42,655 bases of DNA from an uncultured Ruminococcus sp. GTDB taxonomy: Bacteria; Bacillota; Clostridia; Oscillospirales; Acutalibacteraceae. Location of the stretch: assembly GCA_902784855.1 (NCBI GenBank), contig CACZWQ010000019.1:1-42655 (forward strand), given 5' to 3'. Shown here one piece after another: positions 14,494 through 25,661 of this stretch. Both the position numbers and the translations under genes were made by a program. The first letter of the stretch is position 1. Every line of letters starts with the position of its first letter. The notes under the pieces were generated by a model. It searched no databases. It had not been told where the DNA came from and saw only the letters and a list, made by a program, of their open reading frames with translations.

Positions 14494-15210
14494 ATGAAAG
14501 CGGTATCACTCACCAAAGAGATCGCCTCTACCACCTATCCCGGCAGGGGCATCGTACTCGGCAGAACGGCGGACGGCACCAAGGCCGTCATCGCCTACTT
14601 TATCATGGGCAGAAGCGAAAACAGCCGCAACCGCATTTTTGCACAGACGGCGGACGGCATCAGGACAGAGGCGTTCGACCCCTCTAAGCTGACCGACCCC
14701 TCGCTGATCATCTATGCGCCCGTGCGCGTGCTCGGCAACAAGACCATCGTCACCAACGGCGATCAGACCGACACCATCTATGACCTGATGAATCAGCAGC
14801 TCACCTTTGAGCAGGCGCTGCGCACCCGCGAATTCGAGCCGGACGCGCCCAACTACACCCCGCGCATCTCGGGCATCGTCAAGTGCTCCGACGGCAGCAT
14901 GAACTACGCCCTCTCCATCCTCAAAAGCGCCAACGGCGACCCCGCGTGCTGCCAGCGCTACACCTTCTCCTACGACGCGCCCTTGGCCGGTCTGGGCAGA
15001 TTCATCCACACCTATATGAGCGACGGCGATCCGCTGCCGAGCTTTGAGGGCGAGCCGACCTTGGTCGAGATCGGCGACGACAGCATCGACGCCTTTGCCG
15101 AAAAGGTTTGGGACGCGCTCAACGAGGACAACAAGGTCTCCCTGTTCGTGCGCTATATCGACATCGCCACGGGCGAAGCGGAATCCCGTATCATCAACAA
15201 GAATCAATAA
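14494..15210 (+). CDS. purO: IMP cyclohydrolase, PurO type
   Basis: The last purine step, FAICAR to IMP, done by a stand-alone enzyme of the archaeal PurO type instead of the N-terminal domain of bifunctional PurH. The 238-residue protein opens with a PGRGIVLGRTADG segment and continues with IMGRSENSRNR, both characteristic of this group as I know it. It contains no MGS-like fold motif of the PurH cyclohydrolase domain. It lies directly before a PurH that has only the transformylase half, so the two complement each other. GGAGGAAAT precedes the ATG. The assignment rests on family resemblance plus this context. Confidence 0.82.
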   Translation: MKAVSLTKEIASTTYPGRGIVLGRTADGTKAVIAYFIMGRSENSRNRIFAQTADGIRTEAFDPSKLTDPSLIIYAPVRVLGNKTIVTNGDQTDTIYDLMNQQLTFEQALRTREFEPDAPNYTPRISGIVKCSDGSMNYALSILKSANGDPACCQRYTFSYDAPLAGLGRFIHTYMSDGDPLPSFEGEPTLVEIGDDSIDAFAEKVWDALNEDNKVSLFVRYIDIATGEAESRIINKNQ

Positions 15211-15239
15211 TACAGTATAAACAGAAAGGGACGATACCG

Positions 15240-16418
15240 ATGAATGAACTTTCACTCAAATACGGATGCAACCCCAATCAGAAGCCCTCGCGCATCTTCA
15301 TGCAGGACGGCAAGGACCTGCCCGTCGAGGTGCTCAACGGCAAGCCGGGCTATATCAACTTCCTTGACGCCTTCAACTCGTGGCAGCTCGTGCGCGAGCT
15401 GAAAGCCGCGACCGGACTTCCCGCCGCAGCCTCCTTCAAGCACGTCAGCCCCGCGGGCGCCGCAGTCGCCACCGAGCTTTCCGACACCCTGAAAAAGATC
15501 TATTTCGTCGACGACCTCGAGCTGTCGCCCATCGCCTCGGCATACGCCATGGCGCGCGGCGCGGACAGAATGTCCTCCTACGGCGACTGGGTCGCGCTGT
15601 CCGACACCTGCGATGTGCAGACTGCCAAGCTGCTGCAAAGAGAGGTCTCCGACGGCATCATCGCGCCCGGCTACACGCCCGAGGCGCTCGAGGTGCTCAA
15701 AACCAAGAGACGCGGCACCTATAACGTCGTGAAGATCGACCCCGACTATGTTCCCGCGCCCATCGAGCACAAGGATGTGTTCGGCATCACCTTTGAGCAG
15801 GGCAGAAACGAGCTGAAGATCGACGAAGCCATGCTCATGCAGAACATCGTCACCAAGAACAAGGAGCTGACCGAGGAAGCCAAGCGCGACCTGCTCATCG
15901 CTCTGATCACGCTCAAATACACCCAGTCCAACTCCGTCTGCTACGCCAAGGGCGGTCAGGCGATCGGCGTCGGCGCGGGTCAGCAGTCCCGCATCCACTG
16001 CACCCGTCTCGCGGGCAACAAAGCCGATATCTGGTATCTGCGCCAGCATCCGAAGGTAATGAACCTTCCCTTCGTCGACGATATCCGCCGCCCCGACCGC
16101 GACAACACCATCGACGTCTATATCTCCGACGACTATGAGGACGTGCTCGCCGACGGCGTTTGGGAGCAGTTCTTCAAGACCAAGCCCGAGCCCCTCACCA
16201 AGGAGGAAAAGAAGGCGTGGCTTGCCACGTTCAGCGGCGTGTCTCTCGGCAGCGACGCGTTCTTCCCGTTCGGCGACAACATCGAGCGCGCCAAGCGCAG
16301 CGGCGTGCAGTACGTCGCGCAGCCCGGCGGCTCTATCCGCGACGACAACGTCATCGAGACCTGCGATAAGTACAACATGACCATGTCCTTCACCGGCATC
16401 CGTCTGTTCCACCATTAA
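15240..16418 (+). CDS. purH: AICAR formyltransferase (PurH transformylase domain only)
   Basis: Converts AICAR to FAICAR with 10-formyl-THF. The 392-residue product matches only the C-terminal transformylase part of PurH: the catalytic Lys-His in SFKHVSPAG near residue 67, LKYTQSNSVCYA near 225, QQSRIHCTRLAG, DAFFPFGDN, and QPGGSIRDD near the end. The N-terminal IMP cyclohydrolase domain is absent, and that job is expected to fall to the preceding gene. The longer open frame to 15108 only covers the end of the previous gene; AGAAAGGG precedes the ATG chosen. The stop runs directly into the mini-hairpin array. Confidence 0.9.
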   Translation: MNELSLKYGCNPNQKPSRIFMQDGKDLPVEVLNGKPGYINFLDAFNSWQLVRELKAATGLPAAASFKHVSPAGAAVATELSDTLKKIYFVDDLELSPIASAYAMARGADRMSSYGDWVALSDTCDVQTAKLLQREVSDGIIAPGYTPEALEVLKTKRRGTYNVVKIDPDYVPAPIEHKDVFGITFEQGRNELKIDEAMLMQNIVTKNKELTEEAKRDLLIALITLKYTQSNSVCYAKGGQAIGVGAGQQSRIHCTRLAGNKADIWYLRQHPKVMNLPFVDDIRRPDRDNTIDVYISDDYEDVLADGVWEQFFKTKPEPLTKEEKKAWLATFSGVSLGSDAFFPFGDNIERAKRSGVQYVAQPGGSIRDDNVIETCDKYNMTMSFTGIRLFHH

Positions 16419-16648
16419 TGACAGCGAAGCTGTCAATTCATGCGCGAAAGCGTAATTCATGTTCGACAGAACCATTCATGAACCGTCAGGTTCCTTTCAT
16501 TCCCGTTACGTTTTCATAAAGGAGAACAAATTTCGCTCATTTCGGACATTTGCGGCGGGAATGAATTGACCTACGGTCATGAATTGGCTGCACCATGAAT
16601 TGCCTTCGGCATGAATTGGCTGCGCCATGGATTGATTGGCTTCGCCAA
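16419..16648. repeat. Inverted array of short hairpins between the AICAR formyltransferase gene and purD
   Basis: Left half: four mini-hairpins at 16419-16435 (TGACAGC-GAA-GCTGTCA), 16443-16452 (CGC-GAAA-GCG), 16461-16472 (GTTC-GACA-GAAC) and 16480-16493 (GAACC-GTCA-GGTTC), joined by AATTCATG-like spacers. Right half: five at 16567-16579 (TGACC-TAC-GGTCA), 16586-16594 (imperfect), 16602-16610 (GCC-TTC-GGC), 16618-16626 (GGC-TGC-GCC) and 16636-16648 (TTGGC-TTC-GCCAA), joined by ATGAATTG spacers on an exact 16-bp period from 16579 to 16627. Left spacers are reverse complements of right spacers, and a 10-bp pair TTCATTCCCG / CGGGAATGAA encloses the 50-nt centre. The whole could fold as one long stem with side hairpins. 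It is non-coding and lies inside the purine operon. Confidence 0.85.
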
Positions 16649-16665
16649 CCAACTGAGAGGTAAAG

Positions 16666-17931
16666 ATGAAAATATTAATGATCGGCTCAGGCGGCAGAGA
16701 GCACGCGCTCATCAAAAAGCTGCTCGAGAGCCCCAAATGTGAAAAGCTCTACTGCGCCCCCGGCAACGGCGGCATCTCCCGCGACGCCGAGGTCGTCAAC
16801 ATCTCGGTGATGGACAAGGAGGGCATGGTGCGGTTCGCGAAGGACAACGCCATCGACCTCGTCTTTGTCGCGCCCGACGACCCGCTCGCCGACGGCATGG
16901 TCGACGCCATGGAGGCGGCGGGCATCCGCGCCTTCGGTCCCAACGCCAAGGCGGCGATCATCGAGGCTTCCAAGGTCTTTTCCAAAAATATGATGAAAAA
17001 ATACGGCATCCCCACCGCGAAGTACGAAGTGTTCACCGACCCCGCGCAGGCGATTGCCTATGTCAAGGCGGAGAATACCACGCCCGTCGTCGTCAAGGCG
17101 GACGGTCTGGCGCTCGGCAAGGGCGTCATCATCGCGCAGACCATCGACGAAGCCGTCGCCGCGATCAAATCCATCATGGAGGATAAGCAGTTCGGCGACA
17201 GCGGCAATCAGATCGTCATCGAGGAATTTCTCACGGGTCCCGAGGTATCGGTGCTCGCCTTTACCGACGGCAAGTGCGTCAAGCCGATGGTCAGCTCCAA
17301 GGACCACAAGCGCGCCTATGACAACGACGAGGGCTTGAACACGGGCGGCATGGGAACGATCAGCCCCAATCCTTACTACACCGACGCCCTCGCAAAAGAG
17401 TGCATGCGCACCATCTTTGAGCCCACCATAGAAGCGATGGCCAAGGAGGGCAGACCCTTCAAGGGCTGTCTGTACTTCGGACTGATGATGACCCCAAAGG
17501 GTCCCAAGGTCATCGAGTACAACGCCCGCTTCGGCGATCCCGAGGCGCAGGTGGTGCTGCCCAGACTGAAAACCGATCTGGTCGATATCTGTGAAGCGGT
17601 CATCGACGGCAGCCTGAGCGACCTCGAGATCGAGTGGGACGACGGCGCAGCGGCGTGCGTCGTGATGGCGAGCGGCGGCTATCCCGTGTCCTACAAGAAG
17701 GGCATCGAGATGTTCGGCTTGGACGAAAACGGTCAGGTCGACGGCGCTGTCGTCTATCACGCGGGCACCAAGTACGAGAACGGCAGGTTCTACACCAACG
17801 GCGGCAGAGTGCTCGGCGTAACGGCGAAAGCCCCCACGCTGGACGAGGCGCTCGAAAAAGCCTATGCCGCGGTGAAAAAGATCTCCTTTGAGGGCGCGCA
17901 CTACCGCACCGACATCGGAAGAACCAAATAA
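16666..17931 (+). CDS. purD: Phosphoribosylamine-glycine ligase
   Basis: ATP-grasp enzyme making GAR from phosphoribosylamine and glycine. The 421-residue product shows the N-terminal IGSGGREHAL loop, the ATP-grasp segment VVKADGLALGKGVI near residue 142, the metal-site stretch EYNARFGDPEAQ near residue 285, and a C-terminal beta-barrel part. AGAGG lies five bases before the ATG, immediately after the last mini-hairpin of the array, so the array may affect its translation or its share of the operon message. Last gene of the unit. Confidence 0.95.
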   Translation: MKILMIGSGGREHALIKKLLESPKCEKLYCAPGNGGISRDAEVVNISVMDKEGMVRFAKDNAIDLVFVAPDDPLADGMVDAMEAAGIRAFGPNAKAAIIEASKVFSKNMMKKYGIPTAKYEVFTDPAQAIAYVKAENTTPVVVKADGLALGKGVIIAQTIDEAVAAIKSIMEDKQFGDSGNQIVIEEFLTGPEVSVLAFTDGKCVKPMVSSKDHKRAYDNDEGLNTGGMGTISPNPYYTDALAKECMRTIFEPTIEAMAKEGRPFKGCLYFGLMMTPKGPKVIEYNARFGDPEAQVVLPRLKTDLVDICEAVIDGSLSDLEIEWDDGAAACVVMASGGYPVSYKKGIEMFGLDENGQVDGAVVYHAGTKYENGRFYTNGGRVLGVTAKAPTLDEALEKAYAAVKKISFEGAHYRTDIGRTK

Positions 17932-25302: not shown

Positions 25303-25657
25303 GCGAGTGCGCCGAACAGCCGCGAGCAGCGTCCGAAAGGGTCTGTGCGAGGAAAGTCCGGGCTTCACAGAGCGAAAATAACGGCTAACGGCCGCCGGGG
25401 GCGACCCCAGGGAAAGTGCAACAGAAAATAACCGCCCGGGTGCCGATGCACCTTGGTAAGGATGGAAAGGCGAGGTAAGAGCTCACCGGAGGGCGGGAGA
25501 CCGCTCTGCCGTGTAAACCCTATTTGAAGCAACACCGTGGAGGGACAAAAAGCGCTTGCTCGGCGCGTCCCGAGGAGGTGGCATCGAGCGGTCGGGGCAA
25601 CCTGCCGCCAAGATAGATGGCTGTTCAAGACAGAACCCGGCTTACAGACGCAGTCGC
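25303..25657 (+). ncRNA. rnpB: RNase P RNA, bacterial type A
   Basis: Catalytic RNA that removes 5' leaders from pre-tRNAs. Universally conserved segments are present in order: GAGGAAAGTCCGGGCT near the 5' end, ACAGAAAATAACCGCC, then GGTAAGGATGGAAAGG with GGTAAGAGCTCACC, AGATAGATGGC and finally ACAGAACCCGGCTTA. The ends pair as helix P1 (GCGAGTGC with GCAGTCGC, one mismatch). Length about 355 nt. The type A call rests on this layout and was not folded in full. Small open frames inside it are not genes. Confidence 0.95.
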
Positions 25658-25661
25658 GAAA

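Follow-up and report, generated by a model that had tools for sequence, protein, structure and literature searches.

The array of mini-hairpins lying between purH and purD in the window analyzed here (the whole stretch of 42,655 nucleotides from an uncultured Ruminococcus sp., whose genome is designated G000 below, with the other G numbers standing for compared genomes and the L numbers for loci) is probably a non-autonomous element linked to the 23S rRNA intervening-sequence proteins (IVPs), its short spacers being putative binding sites of such a protein. Arrays of this kind recur in the same genome and in its relatives, their stems covary, some of the sites they occupy are empty in related genomes, and such arrays adjoin a good number of IVP genes, with spacer types and IVP clades having diversified together; a protein-binding platform had been among the readings offered by the initial annotation of the region, and the spacers would form just that.

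As read directly from the window sequence, the array spans 16419–16648 and consists of two inverted halves with four and five mini-hairpins, respectively, just as had been described before. The ORF upstream (15108–16418, plus strand, aligned with its congeners, TTG start set mechanically) is one which we take, by recognition and from the initial annotation rather than from a family search, to be the C-terminal part of purH (AICAR formyltransferase), and its TAA stop (16416–16418) falls within CATTAATG, the left half’s tail motif. This left half-array (16419–16501, minus strand), delimited from the sequence and from the same-site left half in G013, has its hairpins at 16419–16435, 16442–16453, 16461–16472 and 16480–16493 and its spacers, CAATTCAT, TAATTCAT, CCATTCAT and CTTTCATT, at 16434–16441, 16453–16460, 16472–16479 and 16494–16501. 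The inner closing arms, TTCATTCCCG (16496–16505) and CGGGAATGAA (16556–16565), are 100% complementary over 10 nt, this being the 10-bp pair already said to join the halves, and the centre between the halves (16502–16559) holds an AAAGGAG (16518–16524) at which, in agreement with the earlier remark on a ribosome site lacking a gene, no ORF of at least 100 aa starts. In the right half-array (16561–16648, plus strand), exact ATGAATTG copies at 16561, 16579, 16595 and 16611 are followed by ATGGATTG at 16627, so the “exact 16-bp period” formerly ascribed to it holds for the last three steps, while the first one is 18 nt; its hairpins are at 16568–16578, 16586–16594 (with a mismatch), 16602–16610, 16618–16626 and 16636–16648, and some of the array’s stems are just 3–4 bp long. 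The ORF downstream (16666–17931, plus strand), likewise aligned with its congeners, is presumably purD, named by recognition. When folded as RNA, as the initial annotation had proposed, the region 16390–16690 proved far more stable than its shuffles (−104.3 kcal/mol, z −5.35, 0/100 shuffles as low). The Rfam search returned no over-threshold family at the array region, and the profile search no PF05635 (IVP) match on the array’s own contig, C19; elsewhere in the window, at 25304–25660, lies a bacterial class A RNase P RNA (248 bits).

The history of the junction can be followed in relatives, as 54 of the 60 congeneric genomes match the purH-purD stretch. Among the 30 loci compared, the array is present in two, those of G000 and its nearest relative, G013, and the other 28, most of which have just a short purH-purD spacer, contain no 400-nt window scoring above 1 with the spacer-aware detector. 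The left halves of the G013 and window copies match and show one clear change in both arms of a stem (GTTC/GAAC to GTTT/AAAC), and the right halves differ, that of the window being 82–91% identical, over the longer matches, to other arrays of G000. The window copy would have entered the junction in the common ancestor of G000 and G013, its right half having most likely been replaced later by G000’s own expanding half-element, in keeping with the separate origin of the right half suspected in the initial annotation. Outside the genus, a ladder (two inverted half-elements) with the TGAATT spacer sits at the purH-purD junction of G085 and G083, which belong to another family, and is absent from G084 and G087 of their genus; the proteins flanking the G085 copy are 70% and 61% identical to those of the window. 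Another site is occupied by a TGAATT ladder in G085 and by one with the spacer GTGAAATG in G055 (where there are below-threshold matches to the Rfam family Gut-1), and it lacks a ladder in G086, G084, G083 and G087. Occupied and empty sites among relatives are found at purH-purD of the congeners and at the two sites just described for G085 and, together with the dispersed copies described below, support the mobile miniature element that had been one of the earlier suggestions; no target-site duplication was noticed on inspection by eye. At L300 (G085:C202), an inserted ladder provides the stop codon of the upstream gene and an AAAGGAG before the downstream one, which may be compared with the AAAGGAG in the window centre.

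Could the ladder instead be an RNA element serving the host’s purine operon, one retained for slowing the decay of the purH-purD message or tuning purD translation? The strong RNA fold would suit such a role, and the junction has been struck repeatedly, by TGAATT ladders in G000/G013 and, in another family, G085/G083, and by tandem heptamers (described below), which, in the six of the 28 array-less spacers examined for them, form two-sided arrays in G006 and G073 and a one-sided array in G007. Arrays elsewhere, however, adjoin many unrelated genes, 28 of the 30 junctions do without this array, and, at about 20 arrays per genome, it is not a very unlikely coincidence for two genomes to share one junction (up to about 0.3 by a rough estimate), which makes the operon-specific explanation unlikely and speaks against the tuning of purD as the main reading.

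The exact unit ATGAATTG-N(5-20)-ATGAATTG occurs in 45 copies at 19 loci of G000 (20 loci counting one more from BLAST), with the reversed-pattern control giving 0, and in 9/58 relatives (10/59 genomes with G000 itself), and therefore the array is not a local accident. Two genomes of one genus, G055 and G085, contain 77 and 75 units, and four other genomes of that genus 0, 0, 0 and 1. A scan of named genomes with a three-spacer pattern yielded, among the matches listed, many ruminant-gut Clostridia and Oscillospiraceae records, with the resulting family distribution being a lower bound; several of the listed matches from beyond Clostridia (cyanobacteria, Prevotella, Mycoplasma and others) appear, in the part examined, to be plain tandem repeats lacking hairpins and were set aside. 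Three viral contigs (L237, L245 and L250) carry several TGAATT ladders per short contig.

In the best-preserved sets, those of G055 and G085, a half-element comprises four copies of a 7–8 nt spacer and a partial fifth (the CATT tail), with mini-hairpins in between. Four ATGAATTG copies are found in 22 of the 26 G055 halves (five in the other 4) and the CATT[AGT] tail in 25, the corresponding G085 figures being 22/28 and 26/28; the plan is looser in G000 (four spacers in 10/15 halves, tail in 7/15) and, among the matches listed, in the named loci (54/94 and 33/94). In the G055 and G085 elements, which have a head-out arrangement, the centre contains CATTAAGG/CCTTAATG and two extra hairpins; the purH-purD elements of G000 and G013 are arranged tail-out. 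Most of the G000 copies are single halves with conserved flanks of their own, and in many of the half-elements at L002–L008 and L065–L076 the array is preceded by GTTCTGCCAAGA and followed by a GCCCG..CGGGC hairpin and ACGGTCACC; as such flanks are common to many of these half-elements, the mobile unit there may exceed the array.

That structure is kept while stem sequence varies, as the initial annotation had put it, holds for G055, where 68 inserts, 56 of them different, have 310 of 323 stem positions in Watson–Crick pairs (96.0%), compared with 67.4% after re-dealing the 3′ arms within length classes (perfect stems: 56 observed, mean of 16.5 in the control). Diversity is lower in G000, whose 45 inserts are of 19 kinds (98.0% vs. 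89.0% re-dealt). Gradual compensatory change was not seen between the orthologous arrays of G055 and G085, which mostly show identical hairpins, loop changes or replacement of a whole half (half-by-half in at least two of the ten orthologous pairs, L088/L285 and L080/L288), with the four “both kept” cells of the comparison representing shifted or replaced hairpins; as it is replacement rather than gradual compensation that these arrays show, the covariation of the stems may stem from module exchange.

The connection with a protein is provided by an element of G055 and its G085 ortholog, whose halves enclose an ORF matching PF05635 (E 4.5e-25), the 23S rRNA intervening-sequence protein family of four-helix-bundle relatives of Avd; an IVP lies between the halves of an element in G055:C36, G085:C222 and G013:C168. 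A solved relative (PDB 2rld) has five chains, and pentamers among IVP relatives are described in PMC4990558 and PMC10053308, of which the latter also gives the likeness to Avd, and the former states that the IVP/S23 proteins have no known function. PF05635 was matched in 21 of the 25 genomes searched (78 matches, seven of which were omitted as fragments, leaving 71 IVP genes for analysis). Ladders with a detector score of at least 3 lie within 400 nt of 24/71 IVP genes, up- or downstream (22/71 upstream alone), and in 0/590 control windows (0/250 from the same loci, 0/220 from purH-purD and 0/120 from Y1 loci); at a score of at least 2, they are upstream of 31/71 IVP genes vs. 5/250, 0/220 and 1/120 of the respective controls. 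An earlier detector relying on hairpin chains only was noisy (chains of at least 3 upstream in 28/71 vs. 21/250 controls), and the spacer-aware one was used instead.

Tandem heptamers are the second flank type, with a period score of at least 17 upstream of 32/71 IVP genes vs. 4/251 controls, and are inverted on both sides of 21/71 IVP genes vs. 0/54 controls, at a median of 4.4 copies per array (n = 53 arrays). Over the 71 IVP rows, there are 36 with ladders, 33 with heptamers and 2 with neither, the labels of 24 rows (12 ladder, 12 heptamer) coming from lower scores or from reading by eye. IVPs were also matched in 25 plasmid records, 11 of which were fetched (from cyanobacteria, Bacteroidota, Spirochaetota, Chloroflexota and Clostridia), and 10 of these 11 have a period-7 score of at least 15 on both sides (controls: 7/251 windows), with the eleventh having a long inverted repeat. 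On seven plasmids (L404, L405, L407, L409, L411, L412 and L413), the heptamer-flanked IVP is located within or next to genes of CRISPR cas, DISARM or restriction-modification systems or methylase genes. In the incomplete G000 assembly, no TGAATT-clade IVP was found, the sole IVP detected there (L309) being of the heptamer class; G013 has one of the TGAATT clade (L095). Behind the gene at L309 (G000:C66), a tRNA-Leu-gene-like start can be seen by eye, with no ARAGORN prediction.

Spacer type follows the IVP clade closely. In the phylogeny of all 71 proteins (104 columns, many weak forks), for which the labels had been set from the DNA before tree building, the ladder vs. heptamer class needs 2 changes, compared with about 24 when shuffled. 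For the 11 spacer types found in the 36 ladder rows, 10 changes suffice, which is the minimum (all of the 200 shuffles needed at least 22), and host family carries no signal on the ladder IVP tree (20 changes vs. 21.6 shuffled). TGAATT, the spacer of the window array, is that of one IVP clade, whose members come from five genomes in four families. With the ATGAATTG pattern as the sole criterion, 139 loci were fetched, and these contained, among the matches listed, ten IVPs, one of which (L173) is G055’s own copy and is not counted; eight of the remaining nine (seven found by the detector, L222 by reading) are nearest to the TGAATT clade (72–88% identity) and lie about 30–139 nt from an array, and the ninth is of the heptamer class and lies 7.3 kb away. 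The spacer predicted from the protein was correct for 8/8 of the further IVPs near arrays, among the matches listed, and for 2/2 IVPs from phage records, whose closest clades, TGAAAT and TTATAT, have the spacers that are also present at these two IVPs (the second one as read by eye). As spacer type and IVP clade go together, with a repeat unit going with one IVP branch, these sequence comparisons suggest that an IVP may recognize its repeat.

As for the sites occupied, 97 of the 150 arrays with both neighbours called (172 arrays overall) lie between co-directed ORFs, and as 57/172 share over 40 nt with a mechanically called ORF, the term “intergenic” does not hold as shown for every array. The genes recurring beside arrays of different genomes are IVP, purH-purD and rlmD, with a few single pairs having another neighbour in common (e.g., L088/L143, 71%). 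ARAGORN predicts a tRNA or tmRNA in the 700 nt preceding 25/71 IVP genes, on the strand of the gene, compared with 0/71 downstream and a tRNA in 0/99 other loci (20 of G000, 14 of G055, 17 of G085, 28 purH-purD and 20 Y1). At L314, L318, L319, L330, L333, L340 and L416, the order of tRNA, terminator-like hairpin with a T-run, ladder and IVP is repeated, as seen by eye, and the first strand of the ladder can pair there either locally or with a strand farther away, as though there were two competing folds. The 23S rRNA methyltransferase gene rlmD (NCBIfam TIGR00479, E 5e-125 for the L203 copy) precedes the IVP by 138–595 nt, in the same orientation, at L189, L203, L233, L321 and L322 and directly follows it at L222, i.e., it is present beside the IVP at 6/13 different TGAATT-clade loci vs. 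0/67 other IVP loci tested; L151 and L154, in which no IVP was detected, have it as well. This adjacency may reflect a preferred site or a link between IVP and 23S rRNA away from the rRNA gene itself. Hairpins close to array heads, no more than 20 nt away on the outer side, are more frequent than in random windows in G055 (13/31 vs. 58/480), G085 (12/31 vs. 38/467), G045 (5/8 vs. 17/124), seven other loci (7/12 vs. 16/176) and the named loci (37/114 vs. 218/1967), with no such enrichment found in G000 (2/19 vs. 26/280). Insertion next to terminators was set aside, given G000 and random control windows that were unmatched for intergenic position.

How, then, would such an element spread? To our knowledge, IVPs have no known catalytic site. 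In the most likely scenario, an IVP would bind one half’s spacers in single-stranded form and this binding would drive the spread: an oligomer (IVP relatives being pentamers) would occupy the unpaired spacers of single-stranded RNA or DNA, the mini-hairpins would fold away the stretches between the binding sites, and the bound element could then spread using host enzymes. It is improbable that the array RNA is instead copied by a resident reverse transcriptase with the IVP as an Avd-like helper, an idea to which the resemblance of IVP to Avd (PMC10053308) lends itself, as RVT_1 is absent in 5/8 of the TGAATT-array carriers searched (G000, G013, G085, G054 and G051; present in G055, G045 and G057), in assemblies that are incomplete and with a profile that may miss divergent types; reverse transcriptase was accordingly set aside as the mover. 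Mobilization of a REP/RAYT-type element by an IS200-like Y1 transposase, which the palindromic dispersed repeats in inverted pairs, with a design recalling REPINs, and the presence of Y1_Tnp (PF01797) in the carriers G012, G016, G035, G045, G051 and G057 might bring to mind, is very improbable, as there is no Y1_Tnp match in G000 (94% complete) or G054, G055 has one partial match (24.7 bits over 48/121 positions, cut-off 23), and G013 one below the cut-off; this transposase, too, was rejected as the mover. A chance local duplication or slippage, which the near-periodic right half might suggest and which the initial annotation would have accepted had related genomes held no second array and the stem arms not covaried, is hardly credible, being refuted by the dispersed copies in G000 and 9/58 relatives and by the covarying stems.

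If IVP-driven spread is taken further, IVPs and their arrays might constitute a separate kind of selfish element present in several phyla, a proposal about evenly balanced between right and wrong: a small, apparently non-enzymatic ring protein would act with inverted arrays in which a 7–8 nt site recurs about 4.4 times (bare heptamers or hairpin-interleaved), each clade having its own site, and the pair would travel between hosts as a unit, favour sites behind tRNA/tmRNA genes and, for the TGAATT clade, beside rlmD, and shed non-autonomous arrays such as that of the window and Gut-1. An orphan RNA and a class of unexplained repeats would gain a protein partner, the IVP/S23 proteins would gain a candidate ligand in the form of a named short repeat per clade, and, if mobilization by IVP is true, this would be DNA spread by a protein without a transposase, RT or HUH domain. 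No report tying IVP to repeats or mobility was found in the open-licence literature, nor was one found under Gut-1.

Among known systems, the closest is Gut-1 RNA (RF01706), and the earlier remark that no named element of this design was known has to be amended slightly: the design, mini-hairpins with a fixed short spacer, is the same, and the spacer differs, being UGAAAU (TGAAAT) in Gut-1 and TGAATT in the window array. The window scores 17.7 bits against Gut-1 (E 0.79, minus strand, over the left half), with the gathering threshold being 50. PMC2864571, in its available portion, describes Gut-1 solely as a noncoding RNA from human gut samples, with no IVP link. Several of the Gut-1 matches listed are nearby opposite-strand pairs, and some lie directly upstream of IVP genes; over-threshold Gut-1 lies upstream of the IVP in 3/14 array-bearing loci searched (L349, L344 and L357), and 25 genomes contain at least 79 over-threshold matches, 7 of those listed having an IVP gene no more than 400 nt away. 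Within the family, the orphan Gut-1 RNA represents the TGAAAT-spacer type, and, on this reading, its over-threshold matches away from IVP are non-autonomous copies.

The 23S rRNA intervening sequences, of which excision by RNase III is a defining trait, share the protein family (S23p/IVP) and the stem-loop with an ORF. The window element, however, lies between purH and purD rather than in 23S rRNA, belongs to a family with hairpin ladders or inverted heptamer arrays, and has no PF05635 on contig C19, although related elements do encode an IVP. In Coxiella, tandem heptamers (GACAGAT) upstream of S23p are described in PMC4990558. REPIN/RAYT systems likewise combine dispersed palindromic repeats with a cognate protein, and REP hairpins bear a GTAG or CGTC foot tag; the window’s assembly, in contrast, has no Y1 HUH enzyme, and the proposed partner is a four-helix bundle without known catalysis. 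By analogy, the proposed geometry would resemble that of TRAP-type proteins, in which a ring binds regularly repeated short RNA sites.
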